From IMG/VR virus record IMGVR_UViG_3300045110_000141, positions 1 to 38,908 of that record: a stretch of DNA of 38,908 nucleotides; one strand, given 5' to 3'. Shown piece by piece: positions 4,501-34,997 of the stretch. Position 1 is the first letter of the stretch, and each line of letters starts with the position of its first letter. Source of the DNA: a virus. The notes beneath the pieces were generated by a model, which saw only the letters and a program-made list of their open reading frames with translations, searched no databases and was not told the origin of the DNA. The position numbers and the translations under genes were made by a program.

Positions 4501-6244
4501 AAGCGGCGGATCTGTAATCGCCTGGCTCGATACTCAACCAATACTGCGCCTTGGCGCGCCAAGTGTAATTGACGGCTTCCTGGAGCTTGCATCCGGTGGC
4601 GGCGCATCCACCGTCAAGCTCGCAGCAGCAGTGACGCCCACCGCTGCGCAGACGCTCCGCTTCCCTGCCGCCTTTCCAACGGCAGGCAACGTCTTATCGG
4701 TTGCCGCCGCAAGTGCAGGGATCGTCACTCTGGCATGGTCAACAGCGTCAACCGGCCACACGATCATGGAAGAAGGCGGCGCACTTATTCAGCGCGGCAA
4801 TCTCAATTTTGTTGGCCAGGGAATCACTGCGGCTGATGTTGCCGGGAATACTCAAGTCACGCTGAATGCAGCGACGCAGACTACTGAAGGCATTGTTTCA
4901 ACGGTCGCTCAGAACTTCGGCGGCCTGAAGACGTTCTTCGCCGGTGCGATCATGCAGGGCACGGGCGTCTCTCAGCCGGTGCTGACAGTGCAGGGACAGG
5001 GCGCGTCAGGCTCAGTGCATATCCAGGAATGGAAGGATAGCGGCGGCGTCTTCTCGGTTGGCTACTTTACGCTTGACGCGCAGTTTCGCATCGGCAACCC
5101 AAACGCCTATACCGGATGGCTCGAGCTGTGCTCGCAGAGTTCGGGTAATACAACCAAGTTTGTATGTGCCACAACGCCAGCTGCATCACTTGTCTATGTA
5201 TGGCCTGCCAATACACCGGCGGCAACTCAGGTGCTTGGCGTCTCATCAATCGCAGGTTCAACCGTCACGATGGCATGGCAGACGGGCGGCAGCGGCTCAG
5301 GCGTTGGCGGCAATGGCACCGTCAACTATCTGGCGCGATGGTCGTCGGCGTCGATTCCCGGCACGCTGACGGATTCAGACATCGAGAATACCGGCACGAG
5401 GCCGAGCGGTAGTCTCATCTTTCATGCGGGCTTTCTGCTTGGGCACTCAGACGGCTTCACGAATATGGGCACGACGTCGAACCGCTTTGCGACATTCTAT
5501 TGTCGCGCGGTGAATATGTCGTCAGTGCTTGGTACAGGCGGGGCTGTCGCATCGGCAGGATGGCAGGACGCGGCAGTCGGAGAGGTGAATCGCTGGTGGC
5601 ATAACGGTGTAGGCACCGCGACCCAGACAGGCAACGGGCAGCGCTTGCAGTTGTATAGCTATCACGGCATTGAAATCAGAGGCAATCGGCGCTCAGGTAG
5701 CGCACCTGCGTTCACGACGATCTCCGGCACTGATTCATCGGGCGTCATCATCTTTCAGGAAATCAACGATGTGCCGCCGATCGTCATCAATTCGGCATTT
5801 ACGCTGACTAGCAGTCTGCTGGTCGTTCAGAACAACTTCACCACTAAACTTGCTATCACTGCGGCAGGCTCGATCTGGTCAGAAGGCGGCATTCGAAATG
5901 CCGTTGCACTCATTCAGCCGGCGGGCGGCACAAACGTCGATCTCACTAATTACTATGGCTACCACATCCTGATCCTCGACACGCTCAACGGCTCATTCAC
6001 CGTCACGCTCCCGCTGTTAACGGCCCTGAATGCGGGCATCCGATGGCGGCTGATATGCAATAGGCGTACAAGCACGCAAACCGTGACTGTCAAGTGCCAG
6101 GCCGGGAACGATATCAACGAGACGGGTGTGGGAACGACGAGCGGCTGGATACTGCGGCCCAACACGAATAATGCCCGTGATGCCATCGTCACCGGCGACT
6201 ACTACAACACCCAACAATGGTGGCTTGCGAACCTGATTGTTTAG
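1520..6244 (+). CDS. Tailspike / receptor-binding protein with beta-helix and internal repeats (1574 aa)
   Basis: The ATG lies 3 nt after the previous stop. Domains by eye: an attachment region (about 1-150); a pectate-lyase-like right-handed beta-helix (about 150-680) introduced by a module starting near TDFNASGQI and the typical DDTAAVQAWLNA segment; a jelly-roll or carbohydrate-binding-like stretch (about 680-870, NGRFLDVVSGNFEGW); two tandem repeats of about 175 residues (roughly 905-1078 and 1079-1254), both with HIQEW and TVSTAAQ/IVSTVAQ motifs; and a C-terminal beta domain. Such proteins bind and often degrade surface polysaccharide. The beta-helix entry module is shared with the protein at 21203-23581. 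No catalytic residues can be assigned by eye. Confidence 0.8.
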   Translation: MADIINPSSTGMTHNADVYWHYSGDPVQRSQLLGTFTIGAPQKVLLPIPADADIVLRCVPRGGRGQGFMAGPGDATPHTISALGVGTGGGTSNFYQGLRVNHGYSYGTTPTPRPILNLLQSFQVKDDAVFGESDLTTFGVPTGQLNLKTDFNASGQIAVTTATSSTGSDIILATTLELQPGQGIYVAGAGVSGAPLITTCLAVSADGKTITLNAGPFTTGSYPVVQADDTAAVQAWLNAKGDLAMPPGYYRLTSSITMPTTSEGFSIIIHGSGWDQSQFVFQHGGDGFIPTSDLRIDSVVFCDLTVATGTIGNTSGTIDAASRGIGIRWTSPGYTGIYDNFVMQRCRVIGWGRFGLWSDNLEVSWISQCIFRENKSGHVAFVGPDTISPNKQPNANTITDTTFDQAISAGPSDAKRTFSGSMTSGSRTLSGSGFTINDRGKFVIVHGAATIGGDLYSFIDTFNSSTSVTLAHQAQATTTNTVELFPVNVASILLNRANDTVVDGSTIQGNFADAGSGATNVASDVNAIKAYNSANCRFIGIHEEDNAGPGGAAIRMENCIAMTIENWGGTSAGPPNFDNAHSADFQLINCHCIRVAQCYFNDRPQFVIDSSSSEIEIDNSLVTGYINLWQQDNSWDKLKIGSGVRLYQAADPRTNQTAGNEYLYDSLFGRDLMINGRFLDVVSGNFEGWTSINPTWWSNPYSSLTREGSYIRVDATAIAASTAPSIILHQAVAIPDTALPGLYTLGFDWYLESQNGVETTGYYTEVRLHPSSGIDEVCQFSTRRFSVVTGIWQRNQIRCFLGSGTSRTIDVQINVTPGTNNVKIRFTNFRLAAGKHVFGAYERAVHDFGGRMRAPLEMLPISSTTYPAPPTAGQVTSMISLVNIAGVLNVGKAGVYSPITTGSSSGHIIQDETVALAAEPVLNFTGSGIRAVDNPIAGNPRTDVFVVAATPTQEGTVSTAAQSFAGTKTFGDGLVAQLPSGAVSGTHIQEWRISSGGSVIAWLDTQPILRLGAPSVIDGFLELASGGGASTVKLAAAVTPTAAQTLRFPAAFPTAGNVLSVAAASAGIVTLAWSTASTGHTIMEEGGALIQRGNLNFVGQGITAADVAGNTQVTLNAATQTTEGIVSTVAQNFGGLKTFFAGAIMQGTGVSQPVLTVQGQGASGSVHIQEWKDSGGVFSVGYFTLDAQFRIGNPNAYTGWLELCSQSSGNTTKFVCATTPAASLVYVWPANTPAATQVLGVSSIAGSTVTMAWQTGGSGSGVGGNGTVNYLARWSSASIPGTLTDSDIENTGTRPSGSLIFHAGFLLGHSDGFTNMGTTSNRFATFYCRAVNMSSVLGTGGAVASAGWQDAAVGEVNRWWHNGVGTATQTGNGQRLQLYSYHGIEIRGNRRSGSAPAFTTISGTDSSGVIIFQEINDVPPIVINSAFTLTSSLLVVQNNFTTKLAITAAGSIWSEGGIRNAVALIQPAGGTNVDLTNYYGYHILILDTLNGSFTVTLPLLTALNAGIRWRLICNRRTSTQTVTVKCQAGNDINETGVGTTSGWILRPNTNNARDAIVTGDYYNTQQWWLANLIV

Positions 6245-7661: not shown

Positions 7662-8015
7662 TTAGTTGATATTGGGGATGACGAGATTATTGACGGCCTT
7701 ATCAAGCTCGCGCTCGAAGGCATCGCGCTTCTCAGGATGGGCACAAAAATCCTCGTACGCCTGATCGACTACCGCCAGCCATTTAATAAACTGTTCGGTG
7801 ATGAATTGCAGCCGCTCCGGCTCACACGAAAGCGTAATCACATTTCCGGTTATCGATGGCCACTCTCCAAGCATTTCATAATGGCCAGTGGCGATAGTCC
7901 ACCAGGCACCAGGGGGCCTGTGATTGATGATGAAATCAAAGGATCCCTCCCACGGACGATTGGGCTTAAAGCTGGGCGGCGTGGCAGCTCGACGCACTGT
8001 ACAAAGCTTTGTCAT
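7662..8015 (-). CDS. Unknown soluble protein of the leftward operon (117 aa)
   Basis: I chose ATG 8015 because an AGGAAAAGAG Shine-Dalgarno sequence ends 3 nt before it; an upstream in-frame ATG at 8045 has no such site. The protein has a Trp/Pro-rich N-terminal half (RPWEGSFDFIINHRPPGAWW, near residues 19-38) and a helical acidic C-terminal half (FITEQFIKWLAVVDQAYEDF). There is no signal peptide or membrane segment. It lies 17 nt upstream of the superinfection-immunity start, so it is almost certainly co-transcribed with it. I recognise no family. Confidence 0.7.
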   Translation of the reverse strand: MTKLCTVRRAATPPSFKPNRPWEGSFDFIINHRPPGAWWTIATGHYEMLGEWPSITGNVITLSCEPERLQFITEQFIKWLAVVDQAYEDFCAHPEKRDAFERELDKAVNNLVIPNIN

Positions 8016-8031
8016 TTTCTCTTTTCCTGTT

Positions 8032-8274
8032 TTAAGGCCGCACAAGCGGTGGATGGGCTAGCTGGTTGATCTCAACGCGGATCGTCTCCAGCCGAGCGTC
8101 GAAGAGTTTCTCCAGATCCGTGAATCGTTGATCAATGCCTTTGAATTGCCGATCGACGCCGGTGAATCGCTGATCAATTGACTTCCACATAAAACCGAGG
8201 ATCGTAGCCAGGAGCGTTATTATTGCGATTCCAGTGCCGATGACTGCAAAGAGGATTTGAGCCGTTGGGGTCAT
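8032..8274 (-). CDS. Membrane-anchored coiled-coil protein (80 aa)
   Basis: An N-terminal membrane helix (about 7-30, ILFAVIGTGIAIITLLATIL) is followed by a heptad-patterned helix from about 32 to 72, with a repeated DQRF unit (IDQRFTGVDRQFKGIDQRF). This is a tail-anchored-like coiled coil on one face of the membrane. The start ATG overlaps the stop of the upstream HTH gene in an ATGA, which implies translational coupling. Similar short TM plus coiled-coil proteins occur beside phage holins and in bacterial operons, so a lysis role is not excluded, but the context is the leftward lysogeny-type operon. Confidence 0.7.
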   Translation of the reverse strand: MTPTAQILFAVIGTGIAIITLLATILGFMWKSIDQRFTGVDRQFKGIDQRFTDLEKLFDARLETIRVEINQLAHPPLVRP

Positions 8275-8462
8275 TTACCGTTGGTTTCCTTCCGTGGGCG
8301 CCCTGCTGTGCGGTGCTCGACTTTGGCAAGATCGGCTTCGCGAATTTGCAGGACAGGTCCGAACTTGCGAGCCGGCAGGCGGCCAGCTTGGATAAGTTGC
8401 TGCACTCGCGCCAGCGAAATGCCAAGCCTTTGAGCCGCCTCTTTCGTGGTGATATACGCCAT
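8271..8462 (-). CDS. Small HTH DNA-binding protein, excisionase/MerR-like fold (63 aa)
   Basis: The protein is a single winged-helix domain of the excisionase type: YITTKEAAQRLGISLARVQQ forms the helix-turn-helix (about 3-22), followed by LIQAGRLPARKFGPVLQIRE as wing and strand. The basic tail (RPRKETNGK) would contact DNA. An AAGGTAGG lies about 10 nt before ATG 8462. It is the first gene of the leftward operon and sits beside an imperfect operator-like inverted repeat at 8495-8519, so it may regulate its own promoter and the divergent one. It could instead be a directionality factor, but it is 2 kb from attP. Confidence 0.75.
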   Translation of the reverse strand: MAYITTKEAAQRLGISLARVQQLIQAGRLPARKFGPVLQIREADLAKVEHRTAGRPRKETNGK

Positions 8463-8470
8463 TGGCAGCC

Positions 8471-8499
8471 ATCCTACCTTATCAAATATATTTTTGCAA
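8471..8499 (-). promoter_or_regulatory. Candidate leftward promoter of the immunity operon
   Basis: On the minus strand TTGCAA (8494-8499) and TAGGAT (8471-8476) are 17 nt apart. The -10 box matches the consensus at only four of six positions and would place the start of transcription within a few bases of ATG 8462, giving an almost leaderless transcript. This is therefore a tentative call. Confidence 0.35.
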
Positions 8500-8519
8500 G
8501 TAGGGATTAAACCCTTGCA
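8495..8519. promoter_or_regulatory. Imperfect inverted repeat between divergent promoters, candidate operator
   Basis: TGCAAG-ta-GGG and CCC-TTGCA face each other across ATTAAA. One arm overlaps the leftward -35 box (8494-8499) and the other overlaps the rightward -35 box (8515-8520). A protein bound here would cover both promoters. Part of the symmetry is expected from two facing -35 boxes, but the GGG/CCC extension is not. Confidence 0.45.
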
Positions 8520-8543
8520 TTATTCTTTGTCGGCAAGTATAGT
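8515..8543 (+). promoter_or_regulatory. Rightward sigma70-like promoter
   Basis: TTGCAT (8515-8520) and TATAGT (8538-8543) are separated by exactly 17 nt, each box one or two bases from consensus. The first gene downstream begins at 8657, so the transcript would have a leader of about 105 nt. It would drive the short accessory genes from 8657 up to the terminator at 9604-9627. Confidence 0.7.
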
Positions 8544-8550
8544 TTCGGTG

Positions 8551-8656
8551 TCAGTCAGGAGTTGGCTGGCGATTGAAATCAAAAGGCCCGGAAGCGTGCT
8601 CAACCGCTAAGTAGTTCACGCAACCAGGCCCCCGTTTACCCCTTAAGGAGTCAACA
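8551..8656 (+). other. Structured 5' leader before the 8657 gene
   Basis: The untranslated stretch between the predicted start of transcription and ATG 8657 contains nested complementary segments: GGCC (about 8585-8588) with GGCC (8627-8630), and GCGTG (8594-8598) with CACGC (8617-8621), enclosing an 18-nt loop. It ends in a strong TTAAGGAGT Shine-Dalgarno sequence. I do not recognise a known riboswitch. It may be a simple structured leader. Confidence 0.3.
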
Positions 8657-8971
8657 ATGTCAACTTACTTCGCACCACCCACCGTCGTCAATCCCGAAAT
8701 CAACCGCGATGTTGATGAGATCATCGCCAAAAGCCAGGCTGCTGCCGCCGCAATGGATGCGGCTTACAAGGATCTTGCCGATCGGATGCAAGCCCTTATC
8801 GACAGGATGTACTCGGCGATCGACGAGATCGCCGATGCAGCCGGCGCCTGGCACTGCGAGTCGTGCGGGGCGTACACGGTTGAAGTCATTTCAGTGGCAA
8901 ACTATTCAGATGAGATGGGCTATGAGACCGCGAATCATTGCGCTCGCTGCCTGCCTGTGGGGGTGAACTAA
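8657..8971 (+). CDS. Coiled-coil protein with a C-terminal zinc-binding domain (104 aa)
   Basis: The ATG is 6 to 7 nt after AAGGAGT. Residues 15-62 form an Ala-rich amphipathic helix (DVDEIIAKSQAAAAAMDAAY) and the C-terminal third holds two cysteine pairs, CESC and CARC, spaced about 26 residues apart, a likely structural zinc ribbon. The gene heads a four-gene unit in which each gene overlaps the next. Such small zinc proteins are common early phage products that bind host proteins or nucleic acid; the function is unknown. Confidence 0.7.
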   Translation: MSTYFAPPTVVNPEINRDVDEIIAKSQAAAAAMDAAYKDLADRMQALIDRMYSAIDEIADAAGAWHCESCGAYTVEVISVANYSDEMGYETANHCARCLPVGVN

Positions 8972-24376: not shown

Positions 24377-24838
24377 ATGCCTTACCGGAAGCCGGTCGCA
24401 ATTGATCTCGCTGAAGTCCAGCGCCTTGCCGGTCTCGGCCTGAGTGAGAAGCAGATATACGAATCACTCGGCATTGGCATGCGGACCTTCTATCGCCGCA
24501 AAGCCGACGATGAAGCATTCCAGGAAGCGCTGAGAAAAGGTAAAGCCCGGACGATAGCAGAGGTTTCGAACTGGCTATATGAGCTTTGCAGAGAAAAGGA
24601 TGTTAGAGCAATCATCTGGTACGAAAAAACAAGGTCCGGTTTTTCCGACCATCTCACGCTCTCAGGCGATTCGGAAAACCCACTTATGGTCGCCACCAGA
24701 GATTCAATTGCCGGCTTTGCGCCCGGACCAGTGGGAGATAGCGCGCCATCCGGCACAGATTCAGGTCCTCGCAGCTGGGCGGCGCTGGGGCAAAACCGTC
24801 CTCGGCGCGGTGCTGGCAGTAACGGCAGCTCGAGATGA
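24377..24838 (+). CDS. terS: Terminase small subunit-like protein (153 aa)
   Basis: Starts at ATG 24377. The N-terminal 50 residues hold a helix-turn-helix (VQRLAGLGLSEKQIYESLGI, RTFYRRKADDEAFQEALRKG) of the kind found in TerS and homeodomain-like phage proteins, and RSGFSDHLTLSGDSENPLMV matches the usual TerS end region. TerS recognises packaging DNA and delivers it to TerL. The last 87 codons lie over the TerL frame, and the final 45 or so residues are low-complexity (Ser/Gly/Pro/Arg), as expected when one frame is constrained by another. Confidence 0.7.
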   Translation: MPYRKPVAIDLAEVQRLAGLGLSEKQIYESLGIGMRTFYRRKADDEAFQEALRKGKARTIAEVSNWLYELCREKDVRAIIWYEKTRSGFSDHLTLSGDSENPLMVATRDSIAGFAPGPVGDSAPSGTDSGPRSWAALGQNRPRRGAGSNGSSR

Positions 24839-25898
24839 CCTTCGGGTTGCATGGATTGTTCCCAATTACGGCAACGGCAGGCCACTCTGGCGCCAGGTGG
24901 AAAGAGCGCTGGCACCATTCAGAAAGTATGGCCTTACGATCAATCGTGCTGATCGAATTATTGAATTTCCACGCGGCGGTGGTATCACGATCTACTCCAT
25001 GGATAACCCCGATTCGATCCGCGGCGAGGCCTTTCATCTTGCCATCCTCGATGAGGCCGCAATGATTGCAGAAGCCGCATGGACCGATGCCATTCAACCG
25101 ACGCTTGCCGATTTCTCAGGCAAGGCGATCCTCATCAGCACGCCGAAGGGTCAGAACTGGTTCCATCGCGAATACCTGCGCGGCCTCGATCCCGCAAGCG
25201 AGACGCATAAGAGCTGGCGCGCACCGTCGAGCGCCAATCCCAATGAGCGTATTCAACGGGCGGCAATGCTCGCCAAGGACCTGGTATCAGACCAGACCTA
25301 TCGCCAGGAATGGCTGGCTGAGTTCATTGAGCACGAAGGGACGGTGTTTCGGAATATCGATGCCTGTCTCACAGCTTTGTCTGACGCAAAACCGTGTGAT
25401 CACGAGGGGCATAGGATCGTCGGCGGCCTCGACTGGGGCCAGATTCAGGATGCAACGGCACTTTCCATCCTGTGCGCTGATTGCCGCATCGAGGTCGCCC
25501 TTGATCGCTTCTTCCGCCTGCCGTGGCAGCAGCAGCGCGACCGCATCAAGGTAACCGCCGACCTGTGGAAGGCGGAGTTACTTGTCGAGATGAATTCCAT
25601 CGGCTCGCCGAATCTCGAGGCGCTGGTTACTGCCGGGCTCGACGTGCAGGGCTTCATGACCACCGCGGCGACGAAGCCGCAGATGATTCAATCGCTGGCA
25701 CTCGCATTCGAAAAGGCTGAGGCGCAGTGGCTGCCTGATCCCGTTGCCCGCGGTGAGCTCGAAGGCTACGAAGCGACGCTATCGACGCATACCGGCAGGC
25801 CGCAGTATTCAGCGCCATCGGGCTCGCACGATGACACGGTGATTGCGCGGGCGCTTGCACTACGGATGGCGCTAGTTGAGCCGTTGAGGTTGATATGA
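24579..25898 (+). CDS. terL: Terminase large subunit (439 aa if starting at 24579)
   Basis: Packaging motor with ATPase and nuclease domains. Walker A AAGRRWGKT (65-73), Walker B LAILDEA (154-160), coupling motif STPKG (187-191), nuclease D285 in GGLDWGQIQDATAL, E338 in EMNS and D418/D419 in SHDDTVIARAL. The motif set and length are typical. ATG 24579 has no Shine-Dalgarno sequence; ATG 24600 or TTG 24708 are alternatives, the last retaining the conserved LPALRPDQWEIARHP segment. Even with TTG 24708 it overlaps terS by about 130 nt in the +1 frame. The end overlaps the portal start (ATGA). Confidence 0.95.
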   Translation: MSFAEKRMLEQSSGTKKQGPVFPTISRSQAIRKTHLWSPPEIQLPALRPDQWEIARHPAQIQVLAAGRRWGKTVLGAVLAVTAARDDLRVAWIVPNYGNGRPLWRQVERALAPFRKYGLTINRADRIIEFPRGGGITIYSMDNPDSIRGEAFHLAILDEAAMIAEAAWTDAIQPTLADFSGKAILISTPKGQNWFHREYLRGLDPASETHKSWRAPSSANPNERIQRAAMLAKDLVSDQTYRQEWLAEFIEHEGTVFRNIDACLTALSDAKPCDHEGHRIVGGLDWGQIQDATALSILCADCRIEVALDRFFRLPWQQQRDRIKVTADLWKAELLVEMNSIGSPNLEALVTAGLDVQGFMTTAATKPQMIQSLALAFEKAEAQWLPDPVARGELEGYEATLSTHTGRPQYSAPSGSHDDTVIARALALRMALVEPLRLI

Positions 25899-27349
25899 AT
25901 CTCGTTACCAGAGTCAAAGAGGCAGCAGTGCAAGCCTGGAACGGCTTCATCGGCGGCTCAAGCGCAAGCTCAGGCCATCCATACGCTTCGGGCTTCTGGC
26001 CTGACTGGCCTGATCAATGCCCCTACGTTCCACTTAGCGGCTCTCCTGATCTGACACGCAGCTCGCTTGTCATGGCCTGCGTCAACTGGGCCGGCACCAC
26101 GATTCCAAGTGCTCCCATACAGGTGCAGCAGCAGAAGGACGTCAAGGTATGGGAGACGATACCGGACCATCCGCTCGTTGATCTGATTGCTGATCCCAAT
26201 CCCTTCTATTCAGGCATCACCTATTGGAAGGCGTTTGCTTACTGGTGGCTTGTCTACGGCAACGTCTTTTTCTACAAGGCTCGCAATGATCAGGGCGCCG
26301 TTGTCGAGCTATGGCTGCTTGATTCACGCGCCGTTATACCCGAATGGACGATACTGCCTGATACCCAGGACCGCACTATCTATTACCGCTATTCCGGTCA
26401 GGGCCTGCCATCAGAGATTCCATACGAAGACATCATTCATCTGCGCTACGGCGTTGATCCGAACCGGCCGCTACTTGGCCTCGCACCGGTGACGTCGCTG
26501 ATGTATGAGATTGCCGCTGATGCCGAGATCTCGAGCTACACGACGCAGATTATGAAGAACTTCGGCATACCGGCGTTTCTCGTTGCCCCAAAGCCGGTAT
26601 CCGATGGCATCTACAAGATGAGCGCGGCGGATATGGATAGCGATATCCAGAAGCGCACAAGCGGCGCACTTCGCGGGAAGCCCCTTGTCTTCAATAAGCC
26701 GATGGATATCACGGCCTTTGGCTTCTCGCCTGATCAAATGGCTGTCGAGAAGGTATCGCGCCGGCCTGAATCGAGAACGTGCGCCGTGCTTGGCGTGCCT
26801 GCAATCGTGCTTGGCTTCGAAGTCGGCCTCGAGCGCTCGATCTACTCGAACCTCAAGGCCGCACAGGAGCAGGCGTGGACTAACTTTGTCATCCCGACGC
26901 AGGATTACGTGACGGCTGTGCTCACCGATCAGCTGCTTTACGAGACGATCATCACCGATAAGGGAACGTGGCAGGGTGTCGAAAGCGATACGTATCGGGT
27001 GATCTTCGACAGATCGGGCGTGCAGGCGCTTCAGCCCGATCGCAATGAGCTATTCACGCGCGAGTCGCTCGCCTACAAGTCGGGCATCAAGAAGCGTAGT
27101 GAGGCACGCTCAGCCCTTGGGCTCGAGACTGATCCCGCAGACGACGTCTACTTTGTCGAGCCATTGCCGGCAGGGCAGACCCCTGGACTGTTTGGGGCAG
27201 CGCCTGGTGCCGCGGCGATGGCCACGCAGGATGCGGCGAAGAAGGAGCTCAACGGCTCACCGCTCAATCTCGATGAGATATCCGCCTGGTGGGACGAGAC
27301 GGCACCGCCTGAAGCCAGGGGGTTACTCGATGCCGAGCAGGTTGCCTGA
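25895..27349 (+). CDS. Portal protein, HK97 family (484 aa)
   Basis: Forms the dodecameric DNA gate at the head vertex. The family pattern is clear: SSLVMACVNWAGTTIPSAPI, HPLVDLIADPNPFYSGITYW, AYWWLVYGNVFFYKARNDQG, YEDIIHLRYGVDPNRPLLGL, SSYTTQIMKNFGIPAFLV, and the distal helix YSNLKAAQEQAWTNFVIP. Length is typical. It is translationally coupled to terL by ATGA. The C-terminal 50 residues are Ala-rich and poorly ordered. Confidence 0.92.
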   Translation: MNLVTRVKEAAVQAWNGFIGGSSASSGHPYASGFWPDWPDQCPYVPLSGSPDLTRSSLVMACVNWAGTTIPSAPIQVQQQKDVKVWETIPDHPLVDLIADPNPFYSGITYWKAFAYWWLVYGNVFFYKARNDQGAVVELWLLDSRAVIPEWTILPDTQDRTIYYRYSGQGLPSEIPYEDIIHLRYGVDPNRPLLGLAPVTSLMYEIAADAEISSYTTQIMKNFGIPAFLVAPKPVSDGIYKMSAADMDSDIQKRTSGALRGKPLVFNKPMDITAFGFSPDQMAVEKVSRRPESRTCAVLGVPAIVLGFEVGLERSIYSNLKAAQEQAWTNFVIPTQDYVTAVLTDQLLYETIITDKGTWQGVESDTYRVIFDRSGVQALQPDRNELFTRESLAYKSGIKKRSEARSALGLETDPADDVYFVEPLPAGQTPGLFGAAPGAAAMATQDAAKKELNGSPLNLDEISAWWDETAPPEARGLLDAEQVA

Positions 27350-27357
27350 AGGAATTT

Positions 27358-27552
27358 ATGGCTGATAACGCCTCACAAGTCATCGCCCTGTTCACAGACT
27401 TTCTGGATGCCTTTGGCCGAGCGAAACCAGCAGAGCGGCGCGCATTCCTCGATTTCATCAGCCCCCAATCACGCGATGACCTCATCCATCTGGCAGATGC
27501 ATTGCGCGAGAAAGCCGCTAAGGAAAGCAAGCCGAAAAGGAGAACGTCATGA
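27358..27552 (+). CDS. Small helical protein before the first capsid gene, possible scaffold (64 aa)
   Basis: ATG 27358 follows GAAGGA at about 4 nt; the end overlaps the capsid start (ATGA). The protein is all helical (VIALFTDFLDAFGRAKPAER; DDLIHLADALREKAAKE) with a basic end (SKPKRRTS). The capsid protein that follows has no N-terminal scaffold (delta) domain, and this gene sits where a separate scaffold would be. That role is inferred only from position and helix content. Confidence 0.55.
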   Translation: MADNASQVIALFTDFLDAFGRAKPAERRAFLDFISPQSRDDLIHLADALREKAAKESKPKRRTS

Positions 27553-28493
27553 CAGCAGCATACCGCAATCCTCTTGAACTAGAACCAGCTTGGCCGCCCC
27601 GCACGCTCGGCGAGCAGTTCGTTGCGAGCAAAGAGTACGTGGCCCGTGATCATCACCGGCTTGGCGACAGGTACTCAGTGAATCTCAACGTGCCGTTCAA
27701 CTGGAAGGCGGCGGGCGATCCGGTGACGATGGTCAGCAACGAGGGTGGCTACATCTCGACGCGCGGCCAGCTTCAGACCTTTCTCGATCTGATCACTGAA
27801 GTGCAGACAAACGCGACGACCATTAACATCACACGCGAAACGAGCTTTGGGCTGGCCGTGCCCGTGCTGACTGCTGATGTTAAAACCGCGCTTGCCCTGG
27901 ATTACGCGAGCGTCATCTTCGTCCCGGTTCAGACTATCGCCGCCTGGATCAAGGTGACAACACAGGCACTCGATGATTCGCGTCAGGCAGGCTACGACAT
28001 CACTAATCGCCTGCGAGTTGCTGTCATAAAGGGCGAAGAGGCGCAGGTCATCGCCGGCAATGGCACATCACCGAACCTATTCGGCATGCTCTCGCCGGCT
28101 GCGGGCATTGCAAGTGCGGCAAGTATCCAGGCGGGGCTTGCAGCTGTGCGAGGTGCCGGCTATACGCCAAATGCCATCCTGCTCAATCCTGCCAATGCGG
28201 CTTCCGCCATCACAGCGGCTGCGCCAAGCTACGCTTACGGCTACGATCCGTTCCGCGGTGTTGAGGTGCTTTACGGTGTCCCGGTCTATTACTCGAATGC
28301 CGTGCCTGCCAATACCGGCATTGTCGGTGATCTGGTTAACGGCTGCGTCATCTATCGCCGCCAGGAGGCGACTATCATCATCGGTCACGTCAATGACGAC
28401 ATCACGAAGAACCTCGTGACGATCGTTGGGGAAAGCCGGCTTGCGTTCTATGTTGTCCAGCCGCTTGCACTCAACAAAGTGACACTTACCTGA
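27549..28493 (+). CDS. HK97-fold major capsid protein without scaffold domain (314 aa)
   Basis: The sequence has HK97 capsid hallmarks: LGEQFVASKEYVAR (the start of the mature N-arm), KAAGDP, a beta stretch with TRETSFGLAVPVLTADVKTA, TTQALDDSRQAGYDITNRLR, the GNGTSPNLFGML motif, GYTPNAILLNP and the P-domain end DDITKNLVTIVGESRLAFYV. It begins directly at the mature N-arm, with no coiled-coil delta domain. A second, longer HK97-fold protein is at 29946-31217; QALDD, PNAI-NP and the C-terminal KN-TIV-E-R segments align in both. It may be the main or a minor shell protein, or a remnant of a second capsid cassette. Confidence 0.85.
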   Translation: MTAAYRNPLELEPAWPPRTLGEQFVASKEYVARDHHRLGDRYSVNLNVPFNWKAAGDPVTMVSNEGGYISTRGQLQTFLDLITEVQTNATTINITRETSFGLAVPVLTADVKTALALDYASVIFVPVQTIAAWIKVTTQALDDSRQAGYDITNRLRVAVIKGEEAQVIAGNGTSPNLFGMLSPAAGIASAASIQAGLAAVRGAGYTPNAILLNPANAASAITAAAPSYAYGYDPFRGVEVLYGVPVYYSNAVPANTGIVGDLVNGCVIYRRQEATIIIGHVNDDITKNLVTIVGESRLAFYVVQPLALNKVTLT

Positions 28494-29113
28494 TGGCTAA
28501 GTTCGCCTGGTCAAAATCACGGCGGCGTTTCATCGACAAGAGCACAGGGCGTGCCGTGCGGCAGGACACCCTGCGCCGCTGGATCAATGAGACGGTCGAT
28601 GGTGCAAGCCGCCGTACTGAGCGCCTGGCTGAACTGCTGAATGCCCGGACGATGACCAATCAGGCGTTCCAGGTCGCGATGGCTTCCGAGATCAGGGTAG
28701 GCGAAAGGGCCATGGCGGCAGCGGCCTATGGCGGGCTTGCTGCGATGACTGAATCAAGGTGGGCTCGAGTTGGACGCTTCGTTGGCAAGCAGCTTGGCTA
28801 TCTGATGCGGTTTGCAACCGAGCTTATCAGCGGGCAGGTCACGCCCGCTCAGGCGGTCAATCGCGCAGGTATGTACCAGGAATCGCTATATGCCTCTTAT
28901 TCGAATCACACAGTTTTGCGTGAGAGTGATTCGGGTCGTCAATATGTGAGGCGCGTGCTTGATCCCGGCGCTGAGCATTGCACGGATTGTCCCAAGCTCG
29001 CCGGCGTCTATCCGATCGAGCAGGTGCCGCCGATAGGCGCAAGTCAGTGCGGCTCGAGATGCAGATGCCAGATTGTTTTCGAAGATGGAATATCACAAGG
29101 CGCAGCAGCCTGA
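28493..29113 (+). CDS. Minor head protein, Mu F / SPP1 gp7-like (206 aa)
   Basis: It shares one base with the previous stop. The C-terminal motif set DPGAEHCTDCPKLAGVYPIE, then PPIGASQCGSRCRCQIVFED, is the cysteine-rich signature of the Mu gpF-like minor head proteins, which are injected or hold the portal region. The N-terminal two thirds are helical and basic, with RFIDKSTGRAVRQDTLRRWI near the start. Length is at the short end of the family. It lies downstream of a capsid gene, rather than next to the portal as in Mu. Confidence 0.75.
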   Translation: MAKFAWSKSRRRFIDKSTGRAVRQDTLRRWINETVDGASRRTERLAELLNARTMTNQAFQVAMASEIRVGERAMAAAAYGGLAAMTESRWARVGRFVGKQLGYLMRFATELISGQVTPAQAVNRAGMYQESLYASYSNHTVLRESDSGRQYVRRVLDPGAEHCTDCPKLAGVYPIEQVPPIGASQCGSRCRCQIVFEDGISQGAAA

Positions 29114-29270
29114 AACAGTGAGATGCTTCTGGTGCGGGCGTGAGCTCGCTGAAGTCCGTGGCGGCTCCCATCTGCGGGTCAGGTGCGGCGACTGTTCGCG
29201 CATGACGTACTACGAGAAGGACGCCCGCAAGCTGGACAAGCCACAAGATATTGTGGTAGTTAAAGCGTAA
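29085..29270 (+). CDS. Com-like zinc-ribbon protein (61 aa)
   Basis: I chose ATG 29085; the TTG four codons earlier is an alternative. VRCFWCGRELAEVRGGSHLR, followed by VRCGDCSRMTYYEK, gives two CxxC pairs 18 residues apart with the RC..C...LAE pattern of the Mu Com family. In Mu, Com activates translation of the mom DNA-modification gene. No modification gene is present nearby, so the target here is unknown. It overlaps the minor head gene by 29 nt and is the last gene before two hairpins. Confidence 0.7.
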   Translation: MEYHKAQQPETVRCFWCGRELAEVRGGSHLRVRCGDCSRMTYYEKDARKLDKPQDIVVVKA

Positions 29271-29294
29271 GAACCGTGTCTTAAAACGTGGCCG

Positions 29295-29313
29295 GAGACC
29301 TCTTAGCGGTCTC
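29295..29313 (+). other. Hairpin upstream of the capsid-cassette terminator
   Basis: GAGACC (29295-29300), loop TCTTAGC, GGTCTC (29308-29313). It stands 12 nt before the larger terminator-like hairpin and may act with it. Confidence 0.45.
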
Positions 29314-29325
29314 AATCGGAGATTG

Positions 29326-29368
29326 GCGCCGCAATCCTTTCCCAGGGATTGCGGCGCTTTCGCTTTTT
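29326..29368 (+). terminator. Strong terminator or attenuator directly before the protease start
   Basis: GCGCCGCAATCC (29326-29337), 8-nt loop, GGATTGCGGCGC (29346-29357): a perfect 12-bp stem. TTT-CGC-TTTTT (29358-29368) then runs right up to ATG 29369. It is the strongest intrinsic-terminator-like structure in the window, yet it lies inside the structural gene operon. It also removes any Shine-Dalgarno sequence from the protease start. Confidence 0.75.
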
Positions 29369-29932
29369 ATGCCCAACGAAAATCCAGACCAGATCGAATT
29401 CAAGGAATGCCAGGCCGAATTCAAGATCACCTCAGAGGCCGGGCCCGGCACGCTCGAGGGCTATGCCGCCGTCTTCGGCAACGTCGATCGTGACAATGAG
29501 GTCATCGTTCCAGGCGCCTTTGCGCGCACCATTCCCGACTTCAAAACGACCGGCTTTCTGTGCAACGGGCACAACTGGAAGGAAGAGCTTGGGACGATCA
29601 CGGATGCCAAAGAGGACGACCGCGGCCTGCATATCACGGCAGAATTTTATTCAACCCCCGATGCCCAACAGGTGCGTCAGCGCCTTTCCGAGAAGATTGC
29701 TCGAGGCCGATCAGCAGGCATGTCAATCGGCTACAGAGTCAAGCAATCGGAAAGGCGCAACGGCGCCCGTCACCTGATTGAACTCGACCTGATGGAAGTC
29801 TCGGTCGTCACCGTTCCCGCAAATCCTCAGGCGCGCGTGAGCGCCGTCAAGAGCTCAGACCCTGAACTTGAATCGAGGCGCGCTTCGGTGCGTCGCCTTT
29901 ACCTTCGTCAACTCGCCCGCAAAAGGGCTTGA
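29369..29932 (+). CDS. Prohead protease, HK97/U35 family (187 aa)
   Basis: Serine protease that cleaves scaffold domains during head maturation. The pattern TLEGYAAVFGNVDRDNEVIV-PGAF (27-51) is diagnostic. Catalytic candidates are H68 (NGHNW), S119 (AGMSIGY) and E143 (LMEVSVVTVPANPQA). I chose ATG 29369 from the family N-terminus; it lies just after a T-tract and has no Shine-Dalgarno sequence. It precedes a capsid protein with a removable-looking coiled-coil N-domain, its likely substrate. Confidence 0.9.
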   Translation: MPNENPDQIEFKECQAEFKITSEAGPGTLEGYAAVFGNVDRDNEVIVPGAFARTIPDFKTTGFLCNGHNWKEELGTITDAKEDDRGLHITAEFYSTPDAQQVRQRLSEKIARGRSAGMSIGYRVKQSERRNGARHLIELDLMEVSVVTVPANPQARVSAVKSSDPELESRRASVRRLYLRQLARKRA

Positions 29933-29945
29933 AAGGAGCAACTCT

Positions 29946-31217
29946 ATGCCGCTTGCAACCTCCACGGGCGAAAAGCTGAAGACTCTGCGCGATCAACTGA
30001 ATCAGCTTGCTCTGCTCGATACCCCATCCGCCGAAGATCTCGAAAAGGCCGTCAAGCTCAATGAAGAGATCGACGGCGTTGAAACCGAATACGTCAAGCT
30101 CAAGGGCGTCGATGATGCCAATGATGCCCGTAAGGCCGCCGATGAAGCCGAAAAGGCCAAGTCTCGCCAGCCCGTAATACGGCCAGGTATAGCCTCGTCG
30201 AATGGCCAGAACCTCGATGCCGAGCGTCAGGAGAAGGCGCTTATTGCGGGCAATAAGTCCTGGTCATCGAGCCTCATCGAATCGGCCATCTACAAGGCCG
30301 TTCACGAGCAGGGCCATCACAGCGGTACGGCCTACAGCGTGACGATCGATGACGCCATCGGCCTCAACGTCAAGGCTGCAGGCGACCCGATCACCACAAC
30401 GCAGTTCGGCACGCGGATGACGGACCTCGGCCTTTTGCCGCATGTCTTTCCGCCCGCAACAGTCCTTCCGCTCATCAATGTGGTCAATGTCGCTGCCGGT
30501 AGCATTCGCTACTACCAGGCAACGATGCCGCCAACTGGCGGACCTGACTGGACGGCTGAAGCCGCTCTGAAGCCTGAAATTCAATTGCGATGGGCGCCGG
30601 TTGATGCCCCGATCGAGACGCTTGCCGAGTGGACTGCAGTCACGCTTCAGGCACTCGATGATCTGCCGCAGCTTCGCTCAGTACTCGACTTCGATCTGAG
30701 ACGCGCACTGCTCAATAAGCTCGATGATTCCATTCTCAACGGTAACGGCACGACTCCGCAGATCCGCGGCCTTCTCAATTTCGCCGGCGTTCAGAGCGTC
30801 GCCTTTGTAGCGACGACTTCGCCCGCCGACATGATTGCGAAGGGTATTGCCGCTGTCAGCGCAACCGGCTACGGCGTCCCGAATGCCATCGTCATGAATC
30901 CCACCGATTGGTGGAATGTTCGAACGTCCAAGATCGGCACGCCGCCCGCATCGTTCTACCTTTGGGGCGCACCGACCGAGGCAGGCACACCGAATATCTA
31001 CGGCCTACCGGTTGTCTCCGATTCGCATATGGCTGCGGGCACGGCGCTTGTCGGTGACTTCAGCTATGCGACGTTCTACCAGCGCATGGGCGTGACCTTC
31101 ATCGTTGGTCTCAAGAACGACGATCTCATCAAGAACATCACGACAATCGTCTGTGAGATGCGCGGCACGCTTGCGGTAACACGACCTGGCGCATTCGCGA
31201 AAGTAGCACTTGTGTAA
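29946..31217 (+). CDS. HK97-fold major capsid protein with coiled-coil N-domain (423 aa)
   Basis: ATG 29946 follows AAAGGAG at about 7 nt. Residues 1-100 are a charged coiled coil (KLKTLRDQLNQLALLDTPSA; AVKLNEEIDGVETEYVKLKG), the delta/scaffold domain type. The HK97 fold follows: VKAAGDPITTTQFGTRMTDL, PIETLAEWTAVTLQALDDLP, NGNGTTPQIRGLL, GVPNAIVMNPTDWWNV, AGTALVGDF and VCEMRGTLAVTRPGAFAKVA at the end. The prohead protease directly upstream should remove the N-domain. This is the capsid gene expected from the usual HK97 order; the 27549 gene is the extra one. Confidence 0.92.
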   Translation: MPLATSTGEKLKTLRDQLNQLALLDTPSAEDLEKAVKLNEEIDGVETEYVKLKGVDDANDARKAADEAEKAKSRQPVIRPGIASSNGQNLDAERQEKALIAGNKSWSSSLIESAIYKAVHEQGHHSGTAYSVTIDDAIGLNVKAAGDPITTTQFGTRMTDLGLLPHVFPPATVLPLINVVNVAAGSIRYYQATMPPTGGPDWTAEAALKPEIQLRWAPVDAPIETLAEWTAVTLQALDDLPQLRSVLDFDLRRALLNKLDDSILNGNGTTPQIRGLLNFAGVQSVAFVATTSPADMIAKGIAAVSATGYGVPNAIVMNPTDWWNVRTSKIGTPPASFYLWGAPTEAGTPNIYGLPVVSDSHMAAGTALVGDFSYATFYQRMGVTFIVGLKNDDLIKNITTIVCEMRGTLAVTRPGAFAKVALV

Positions 31218-31226
31218 TGAGGGTGT

Positions 31227-31484
31227 ATGAAAGTTGTCGCTGATCAGAGCTGGTGCTTAACGGATAAAGGCGAGCGGGTTCCTGAAGGGCATCCGCTCGC
31301 CCGTTTTTTGCTCGTCTCGAAAGGCTGTGAGATCGAAGAGTCGCAGCTTGAGGGCTATCCGACGCTCGAAGAAGACGAGCAGGTGGAAGACGACGAGGAA
31401 GAAGACACGGGTGAAGAGACGCCGGAAGGTGAGCCCGTCAAGCGCCCACGTGGCCGGCCTCGCAAGATTCCAATAGATCAATGA
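31227..31484 (+). CDS. Acidic protein with an AT-hook-like motif (85 aa)
   Basis: ATG 31227 follows GAGGG, and the end overlaps the next gene (ATGA). A small N-terminal domain (WCLTDKGERVPEGHPLARFL) is followed by an acidic tract (LEEDEQVEDDEEEDTGEETP) and the basic KRPRGRPRK, which matches the AT-hook core (PRGRPRK) that binds the minor groove of AT-rich DNA. It directly follows the capsid gene. It may bind packaged DNA or help head completion. Confidence 0.65.
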   Translation: MKVVADQSWCLTDKGERVPEGHPLARFLLVSKGCEIEESQLEGYPTLEEDEQVEDDEEEDTGEETPEGEPVKRPRGRPRKIPIDQ

Positions 31485-31957
31485 CCGATTCAGAAGCCTT
31501 CCAGAAAGCAGTCGAGATCGTCGCTGTCCAGGCCTGCGCCTGCGATCCGCCTGAGCTCTCACAGGGCGAGCTCGAGGGTGTCGTCAAGGATGCGCAGATT
31601 GCATCCACCTGGCAGCCGGACACCGCCTACGGGCAGGGCGATCAGGTCGTTCCAACGATTCCTAACGGCCATCTCTACCAATGCACCGTTGCAGGGACAT
31701 CAGGCTCAACGGAGCCCGCGTGGAATCAATTCTTCGGGACGACGACCACCGATAACACGGTGACCTGGCTTGAAGCGGGCCTCGTGAAAGGCTACTTCGA
31801 TCTCGATCGGGCGACATCAAACGCATGGATGCTCAAGGCCGGGAAGGCCGCACCGCTGGTGCAGAACTCGAGTGCCGGTCAGTCGCTTGCCTCGCAGCAG
31901 CTCTTCACGCACTGCCGCCAGATGGCCCGCGACTGGGAGCCGACGGAGGTGTCATGA
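31481..31957 (+). CDS. Head-tail connector-like protein with a beta module (158 aa)
   Basis: ATGA overlap with the preceding gene. The helical N-terminus and the C-terminal helices (LASQQLFTHCRQMARDWEPT) fit head-completion adaptors that sit after the capsid gene. Between them, at about 42-105, is a beta module, STWQPDTAYGQGDQVVPTIP then NGHLYQCTVAGTSGSTEPAW, close to carbohydrate-binding modules found repeatedly in phage virion proteins. It appears to be an adaptor with an inserted surface domain. Confidence 0.6.
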   Translation: MTDSEAFQKAVEIVAVQACACDPPELSQGELEGVVKDAQIASTWQPDTAYGQGDQVVPTIPNGHLYQCTVAGTSGSTEPAWNQFFGTTTTDNTVTWLEAGLVKGYFDLDRATSNAWMLKAGKAAPLVQNSSAGQSLASQQLFTHCRQMARDWEPTEVS

Positions 31958-32423: not shown

Positions 32424-32819
32424 ATGCCCTATCAAGCACGGGAATACTGGTACAAGGCGGATGGCTCGGTAGTCGATTCGAGCGATGCCGCACGAGGATA
32501 TATCGCCTTCCCATACGGCTCGCAAGTGCCGGCAGCGAAGGTGCCTGTTGCATATGTGCCCGCCGCGCCGACGCTCACCACGCTTACGCCGTCAACCGCC
32601 GCCATTGCGTCGTCCGGTCTCAAGGTGACGCTCACCGGCACTGGCTTCTCGGGGAACTGCGTGGTCACTGCGGGCGGCGTGGTTATGGATGGCGCTGCGT
32701 TCATATCGGCAACATCGATGCAGGCCAATATTCGAGGGGCAGCAGCAGGCGCCGTGCCGGTCGTCGTTCGCGATGACTATGGACAGGTGAGCGCAGCAGT
32801 CAACTTCACGTTTAGTTAA
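32424..32819 (+). CDS. Ig-like (IPT/TIG) virion protein (131 aa)
   Basis: ATG 32424 is preceded by GCGGAGG at 6 to 7 nt. The C-terminal 80 residues form an IPT/TIG-type Ig-like domain: PAAPTLTTLTPSTAAIASSG, then LKVTLTGTGFSGNCVVTAGG and VPVVVRDDYGQVSAAVNFTF. Such domains decorate phage heads or tails and bind carbohydrate weakly. The N-terminal part (YWYKADGSVVDSSDAARGYI) may anchor it. Confidence 0.7.
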   Translation: MPYQAREYWYKADGSVVDSSDAARGYIAFPYGSQVPAAKVPVAYVPAAPTLTTLTPSTAAIASSGLKVTLTGTGFSGNCVVTAGGVVMDGAAFISATSMQANIRGAAAGAVPVVVRDDYGQVSAAVNFTFS

Positions 32820-33828: not shown

Positions 33829-34407
33829 ATGTCATCAGGCGCATACGATCCCATAAAACTCGTCGTCGGACCGGGCAAGATGTATTTCAACTGCGCACCC
33901 CCGGCAGACGGCGCATCGCTTTCAACAATTCTCGTAGCAGGCGTCCCGTCTGATGGGGTTCTTGTCGGCTACACGAAAACCGGGACCACCTATCATTCAG
34001 CAATGACGCTCACGGGCTATGAAGTCGATGAGGTGCGCTCACCCATCTTCTACAACCCGACACAGGAAACGGTATCGATTCAGGGAACGCTCGTGCAGAT
34101 TGCCGAGACGGCAACGCTGAGCGCGCTACTCCCGAACTACAACTTCAAGACGCCGGGTTCCTACCACGTTGGCGGCCTCGATGCCTGGCCAACCACGGCA
34201 TATCCGAGCGTGCTTGTTGTGGGCCACAACCGCGCGACGCCTGGAAAGATCGTTGCCGTAATGATCTATAAGGCGCTCAACACGCAGGAATTTGTCATGG
34301 CAATCACGCGCCAGAATCCTTCTGAGACTGCCTTCACCTTCAGCGGCAATGCCATCGGGACACGCGAGGTAGGCGACCAGCTCGGGCAGCTTTATCTGGA
34401 AGCCTGA
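33829..34407 (+). CDS. Major tail tube protein, copy 1 (192 aa)
   Basis: ATG 33829 follows AAGGAGG at about 6 nt, the strongest Shine-Dalgarno sequence among the tail genes, fitting an abundant product. The protein is all beta, with the layout of a tube protein: KLVVGPGKMYFNCAPPADGA, QETVSIQGTLVQIAETATLS, MIYKALNTQEFVMAITRQNP, DQLGQLYLEA. The next gene encodes a paralogue. Gene order before the chaperones and tape measure supports the call. Confidence 0.75.
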   Translation: MSSGAYDPIKLVVGPGKMYFNCAPPADGASLSTILVAGVPSDGVLVGYTKTGTTYHSAMTLTGYEVDEVRSPIFYNPTQETVSIQGTLVQIAETATLSALLPNYNFKTPGSYHVGGLDAWPTTAYPSVLVVGHNRATPGKIVAVMIYKALNTQEFVMAITRQNPSETAFTFSGNAIGTREVGDQLGQLYLEA

Positions 34408-34997
34408 TGTCCTCACCGACTGACTACAACGCAACCCAGGTGATCACCGGGCCGAATATCGGTCTCTGGTGGAATGTCACGCTGCCTGCGCCCAACGTCC
34501 CGCTTGTCCTTGATGCTAATGGATTCCCGCCTGATGGGCGGCCTATGGGCTATACCGATCACGGGCTCACCTTGACGATCGGATGGCAGGCGCCGCCTGA
34601 GGAAGCCTGGGACGCGCAGGAGCCCTACCGCGTTTATGCGGCAAATCAGATGTCTATGGAAGGCACGCTTGTTCAGATGTCCGATCTCGATAAAGTGCGG
34701 ATACTCGTGCCGCCTGCGATCATTGCGCCGTCAAATGATCTTGTGACCTTCGGCACTGCCGTCAAGGCGCAGCAGGGGCCAACGTCCGTTCTCATGGTGT
34801 TTCCGCATCAGGCTAACCCACTGAGCCCGAAATACGGCTACGCCCTGATCTATAAGGCCATCAATACAACGCCGTTCAGCTTCGCAGTCACCCGGCGGGA
34901 TATGACGAAGGTCAACTTTCGCTTCGATGCACGGCCCGTATTCTCGAGGCCGCCCACGGATCAAATCGGGCAATTCACAACAATGGTTCCACCATAG
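34407..34997 (+). CDS. Tail tube-like protein, copy 2 (196 aa)
   Basis: The ATG shares one base with the previous stop, so the two are made together. Aligned by eye with copy 1: QVITGPNIGLWWNVTLP with KLVVGPGKMYFNCAPP; MSMEGTLVQMSDLDKV with VSIQGTLVQIAETATL; ALIYKAINTTPFSFAVTRRD with VMIYKALNTQEFVMAITRQN; and DQIGQF with DQLGQL. Overall identity is low, so the duplication is old or the two genes came in separately. It may be a second tube subunit, a tube-end protein or a decorated variant. Confidence 0.7.
   Translation: MSSPTDYNATQVITGPNIGLWWNVTLPAPNVPLVLDANGFPPDGRPMGYTDHGLTLTIGWQAPPEEAWDAQEPYRVYAANQMSMEGTLVQMSDLDKVRILVPPAIIAPSNDLVTFGTAVKAQQGPTSVLMVFPHQANPLSPKYGYALIYKAINTTPFSFAVTRRDMTKVNFRFDARPVFSRPPTDQIGQFTTMVPP

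Follow-up and report, generated by a model that had tools for sequence, protein, structure and literature searches.

Whether icosahedral viruses build their hexamers and pentamers from one protein or from two is an old question that has been studied mainly in bacteriophage T4. This phage is prolate, has a genome far larger than 100 kb, encodes its scaffold proteins separately, and has two HK97-fold shell proteins, gp23 and gp24, with approximately 20% identity. Of the two, gp24 is the minor protein and loses a far shorter N-terminal propeptide, 10 residues versus 65 for gp23 (PMC9958956). In HK97, residues 76-103 of prohead I form a rigid helix-turn-strand that lies on the capsomer, the upstream coiled coils form towers with two lobes of three subunits each per hexon, the penton scaffold appears as one weakly connected density, 30 scaffold domains touch the portal, and cleavage occurs at K103/S104 (PMC10275583). 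Outside phages, the Family 2B two-component encapsulin of Streptomyces lydicus also combines two HK97-fold proteins in mixed shells, where Sl-Enc1, unable to form shells alone, enters Sl-Enc2 shells at 0-60% (PMC12407261). Here we analyse a window of 38,908 bases, the whole of the IMG/VR virus record IMGVR_UViG_3300045110_000141, which encodes two HK97-fold capsid proteins, called MCP1 and MCP2 (major capsid proteins 1 and 2). Judging from its gene content (integrase, helicase, replication initiator, tail fibre proteins, terminase, portal, protease, capsid, and connector), this is a temperate tailed phage, and in a phage of this size one MCP normally suffices. The features at the centre of this study are:

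27549..28493, + strand: MCP1, second HK97-fold capsid protein of 314 amino acids (aa), with a short scaffold tail (PF05065, PHROG 10, AlphaFold2 model)
27600..27707, + strand: MCP1 residues 18-53, scaffold-domain remnant (helix-turn-strand) ending at the putative cleavage site FNWK/AAGDP (K53/A54)
29288..29932, + strand: prohead serine protease (S78) (PF04586 8.1e-28, PHROG 80 1.9e-46)
29946..31217, + strand: MCP2, main HK97-type major capsid protein with full scaffold (delta) domain, 423 aa (PF05065, PHROG 10)

Both proteins match the Phage_capsid family PF05065 (9.1e-18 for MCP1 and 6.4e-33 for MCP2) and the major head protein family PHROG 10 (3.5e-20 and 2.2e-46, respectively), the PF05065 score of MCP1 (65.1 bits) being above the curated cut-off of 24.2. 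They are 34% identical to each other over 308 aa (E 4e-36), far above chance, and HK97 gp5 structures were also matched (6e-22) by a profile restricted to the MCP1 family. The AlphaFold2 model of MCP1 (predicted local distance difference test, pLDDT, 68.7; predicted template modelling score, pTM, 0.69) superposes on prohead I of D3 (Z 21.4, root mean square deviation 2.6, 248 residues) and of HK97 (Z 21.1, deviation 3.0, 243 residues) and contains the P-domain, A-domain, E-loop, and N-arm of the fold; encapsulin chains are also found among its structural matches. The model of MCP2 was poor (mean pLDDT 49) except for the scaffold helices and was left out of the fold comparison; because its C-terminal part was poor, the fold of MCP2 was assigned from profiles and from the match of its alignment to HK97 structures. 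MCP2 also has the scaffold helices and the directly upstream protease of an HK97-type major capsid protein. These results confirm that the window encodes two HK97-fold capsid proteins, as had been proposed in a sequence-only reading of this DNA; the motifs quoted there as shared occur in both proteins, and its proviso that one of them might not fold as an HK97 capsid protein did not materialize, given the superposition of MCP1 and the profile matches of MCP2.

The main difference between the two proteins concerns the scaffold. The MCP2 model has two long N-terminal helices (residues 3-22 and 29-73), which, with the S78 protease upstream, agrees with the scaffold domain and protease previously noted for this protein. 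The MCP1 model has only short helices (residues 20-26 and 28-31) followed by a strand (42-46), its residues 19-314 align to residues 76-382 of HK97 prohead I, and approximately 50 residues are aligned before the N-arm versus 116-138 in MCP2-type proteins. The fused scaffold (delta) domain of MCP1 is thus incomplete: the N-terminal coiled-coil arm is absent, whereas the C-terminal helix-turn-strand part of the domain (the docking tail) is kept, which corrects the sequence-only reading, by which this protein lacks a scaffold domain. Read by eye from the motif, putative cleavage sites lie at FNWK/AAGDP in MCP1 and LNVK/AAGDP in MCP2, matching FNK/SLGSD of HK97, and would define propeptides of 53 and 143 residues, respectively (longer in the MCP1 of the related record L003). 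The HK97 cross-link triad K169, N356, and E363 (residue numbering checked against the deposited sequence) corresponds to K112, N288, and E295 in MCP1, in all seven MCP1 proteins, and to K209, N397, and E404 in MCP2, conserved in 20 of 20 MCP2-type proteins. By approximate domain borders, MCP1 has a shorter A-domain (94 aa versus 101-107 in each of seven comparators) and an E-loop with poor conservation relative to that of MCP2.

Searches of IMG/VR retrieved six further records with MCP1 (L003, L004, L005, L006, L007, and L014), at 75-96% identity. Both capsid genes are complete, intact, and in the same order in the window and in five of these six; L004 stops before MCP2, and two other records (L012 and L013) have the MCP2 of this clade but start downstream of MCP1. 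No decayed copy was found among the relatives, contrary to one outcome envisaged in the initial reading, and all seven records of the clade that span the junction between the portal and muF genes carry MCP1. By contrast, MCP1 was not found in approximately 20 outgroup records whose portal, MuF, protease, or MCP2 is related, and the sister record L030 (39,137 bases, MCP2 59% identical), which lacks MCP1, has a single capsid match across its whole length. Ratios of non-synonymous to synonymous substitutions relative to the window are low for MCP1 (0.065-0.174), as for MCP2 (0.028-0.145), the portal (0.032-0.105), and the terminase large subunit (0.077-0.116), and the MCP1 and MCP2 trees give identical sister pairs (window/L003, L005/L006, and L007/L014). 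The two proteins are under purifying selection and kept together. An assembly artefact was rejected, as separate contigs from several metagenomes have both genes. The longest records with MCP1 measure 38.1-38.9 kb versus 39.1-42.2 kb for those without it, so that record length does not increase with MCP1, which argues against a larger shell. In two restrictive scans of genome contigs for a host, no relative was found.

The head operon reads terS, terL, portal, a 64-aa open reading frame (ORF), MCP1, MuF-like, a 65-aa zinc-ribbon-like ORF, S78 protease, MCP2, an 85-aa ORF, and decoration protein. Its other annotated members are:

24579..25898, + strand: terminase large subunit (PF03237 4.2e-10, PHROG 2 2.4e-32)
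25895..27349, + strand: portal protein (PF04860 2.7e-45)
27358..27552, + strand: 64-aa ORF 5' of MCP1, which accompanies MCP1 in all relatives (ORF list and comparison)
28493..29113, + strand: MuF-like minor head protein (PHROG 24776 1.7e-35)
31481..31957, + strand: probable head decoration protein with a CBM5/12-like (chitin-binding-type) domain (PHROG 20658 3.3e-15)

MCP2 occupies the usual place after the S78 protease and MCP1 lies between the portal and the MuF-like gene, a name that reflects our reading of the C-terminal Cys motif of its product. Both capsid ORFs are intact, as first noted, and preceded by good ribosome-binding sites (AAAAGGAG before 27549 and GAAAGGAG before 29946). The MCP1 start codon shares bases with the stop codon of the 64-aa ORF (ATGA), and the MCP1 stop codon with the MuF-like start (TGATG), which embeds the gene at both ends in the head operon; its codon usage similarity to MCP2 (0.589) does not differ from that of the portal (0.599). 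The 64-aa ORF has no match in Pfam and PHROG profile searches and has a relative in L030 at another location (5164-5388), directly after a fibre gene. Further downstream, at the tail-tube position, the window has two adjacent paralogues (33829-34407 and 34407-34997), 28% identical, both of which recur in L006, L012, and L013, whereas L030 and L022, two records without MCP1, have one copy. No family match names either of them and their probable tail-tube identity comes from gene position; the clade seems to have doubled both a shell and a tail-tube gene.

The portal-muF junction is a general cargo site. The MuF-like gene that follows MCP1 exists as two types, 36-39% identical to each other and at least 72% identical within a type, and both occur within each of the three sister pairs, which implies at least three exchanges with MCP1 retained each time; the window and L003, for instance, differ in muF type while their portal and MCP2 are 99% identical. 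Between portal and muF, L044, L046, and L049 have a DNA methyltransferase with a DPPYG motif and a zinc-ribbon ORF, and the C-terminal end of the L044 methyltransferase is a copy of the portal C-terminus (QGILDAEQVR). In L007, a gene for an IPT/TIG immunoglobulin-like protein (approximately 875-1670), a relative of window 32424-32819, lies between the 64-aa ORF and MCP1 and is preceded by 30 nt that repeat the portal 3' end at 93% identity. In the window, no direct repeat of the portal 3' end was found next to MCP1.

In phylogenetic trees, the MCP1 proteins group as a single clade whose long branch falls outside every MCP2-type protein of the group, although nearer to these than to HK97 or actinophage MCPs. 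A recent duplication of MCP2 within the clade was rejected by the approximately unbiased (AU) test, both after the split from L030 (p 0.002) and including L030 (p 0.010), and also on the C-terminal part alone (p 0.007), whereas a placement of MCP1 just inside the wider MCP2 family was not rejected (p 0.078 and 0.224). Long branches limit all such tree-based inference. The N-terminal motifs common to MCP1 and MCP2 (KAAGDPI, and NLDxER in the L003 MCP1) lean towards the latter placement and suggest an older duplication or N-terminal recombination, and the tests are compatible with an origin of MCP1 either by old duplication or by import.

What does MCP1 do? We tentatively prefer, from its sequence, its modelled structure, and the analogy with T4, a role as a dedicated second shell subunit that would co-assemble with MCP2, most likely at the vertices; that it is a shell subunit in some position, be it vertex, mixed, or portal-proximal, we consider quite probable. 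Made from the same operon as MCP2, MCP1 would co-assemble with it in the procapsid via the scaffold arms of MCP2, would be trimmed by the same S78 protease at K53/A54, and would join an HK97-type cross-linked shell, with MCP1 presumably at the five-fold vertices and MCP2 in the hexamers, in a division of labour like that of T4 gp24 and gp23. The vertices are preferred on two grounds: two coiled-coil trimers cannot be made from five subunits, and in the precedent, gp24, the propeptide is the shorter one, as it putatively is in MCP1; in addition, the presence in HK97 of towers under hexons versus weak density under the penton implies that a subunit devoid of coiled coil would suit the penton. 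Several observations weigh against this proposal. The computed alignment puts HK97 S104 at MCP1 N51, a few residues off the motif-based cleavage site, and the cross-link triad, being kept family-wide, may be inherited rather than used in MCP1. The L003 MCP1 (7812-8894) has a longer N-terminus, with approximately 47 extra residues that include an NLDFER stretch like that of the MCP2 scaffold tail; it may represent a stage in the loss of the scaffold. Shallow alignments limited the models of both proteins. Finally, MCP1-MCP2 identity by domain (0.41 for P and 0.33 for A, with approximate borders) reveals no excess divergence of the A-domain beyond its deletion and, therefore, no direct sequence sign of MCP1 at vertices, although this measure is uninformative for vertex versus mixed shell.

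A randomly mixed shell, in which MCP1 would replace MCP2 anywhere and in variable amount to tune stability or surface, is the main rival. The common fold and cross-link triad of the two proteins speak for it, as does the HK97-fold precedent of Sl-Enc1/Sl-Enc2, MCP1 likewise being without its own scaffold arm; nevertheless, at 34% identity and with its shortened A-domain, MCP1 is less likely to swap freely with MCP2 inside a capsomer, and hexons in which random subunits had no coiled coil could not keep the 2x3 towers known from HK97, so that we regard this arrangement as rather unlikely. Mixed shell and vertex protein were two of the three options advanced in the sequence-only reading and both persist, with the vertex favoured and sequence alone unable to separate them. 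The third, a head-cassette swap caught midway, is rejected by the intact pair, the purifying selection, the recurrence in six records including the window, and the muF exchanges. An exchange of this kind, or a passive remnant of one, would be consistent with the branching of MCP1 outside the whole MCP2 clade, as expected from import, and with its place in a cargo site; the intactness of MCP1 in all records, down to 75% identity and with low substitution ratios, the sister pairs that it has in common with MCP2, and its survival of three neighbouring muF exchanges make it extremely improbable.

We give little credence to a role outside the shell lattice, as an assembly regulator, an internal protein, or the subunit of a separate particle. 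Encapsulins, which also appear among the structural matches, are a precedent for HK97-fold proteins that make compartments of their own, but MCP1 keeps the cross-link triad, E-loop, and N-arm and sits within the head operon with start and stop codons overlapping its neighbours. Very unlikely, too, is a portal-proximal subunit, for example in a ring of capsid subunits encircling the portal: in seven of seven records MCP1 is encoded directly between portal and muF, but position says little at a junction that takes up cargo such as the methyltransferase of relatives, and HK97 portal contacts come from coiled coils (PMC10275583), which MCP1 lacks.

Under a broader scenario, which we hold as possible and still more tentative than the vertex role itself, a 39-kb HK97-type lineage took an MCP from another branch of the family, removed its coiled-coil scaffold, and made it a partner that MCP2 cannot do without, at the vertices or in a mixed shell, with both proteins cross-linked into one chainmail. 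If true, specialization for hexon and penton would have a second, independent origin, the comparison of this phage with its same-size, one-protein sister would make the one-or-two-protein question testable in the best understood capsid system, and it would become apparent whether two different proteins can take part together in HK97 cross-linking.

With HK97 gp5 and its relatives (PHROG 10, PF05065) the locus shares the fold, the protease-MCP order, the scaffold fused to the capsid protein (in MCP2), and the triad K169/N356/E363, but HK97-type phages have one MCP each. In INPHARED, the 972 phage records matched by MCP2 and the 98 matched by MCP1 have exactly one matching place each, counts that do not take in second capsid proteins as remote as T4 gp24, and full-text searches of openly licensed literature retrieved no siphophage with two HK97 MCPs. 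The two-component encapsulin differs in being a cellular compartment without portal, protease, or DNA packaging, and MCP1 belongs not to a cellular operon with a cargo enzyme but to a phage head operon with terminase, portal, and protease. As with gp24, MCP1 is an HK97-fold paralogue encoded in one genome with the main MCP; unlike T4, this is a 39-kb phage with an HK97-type scaffold-fused MCP, and the likeness to gp24 would be one of role, which need not imply direct descent. Two HK97-fold shell proteins are already known from T4, whereas the HK97-type scaffold-fused variant, with the cross-link triad in both proteins and in a 39-kb genome, appears to be new.

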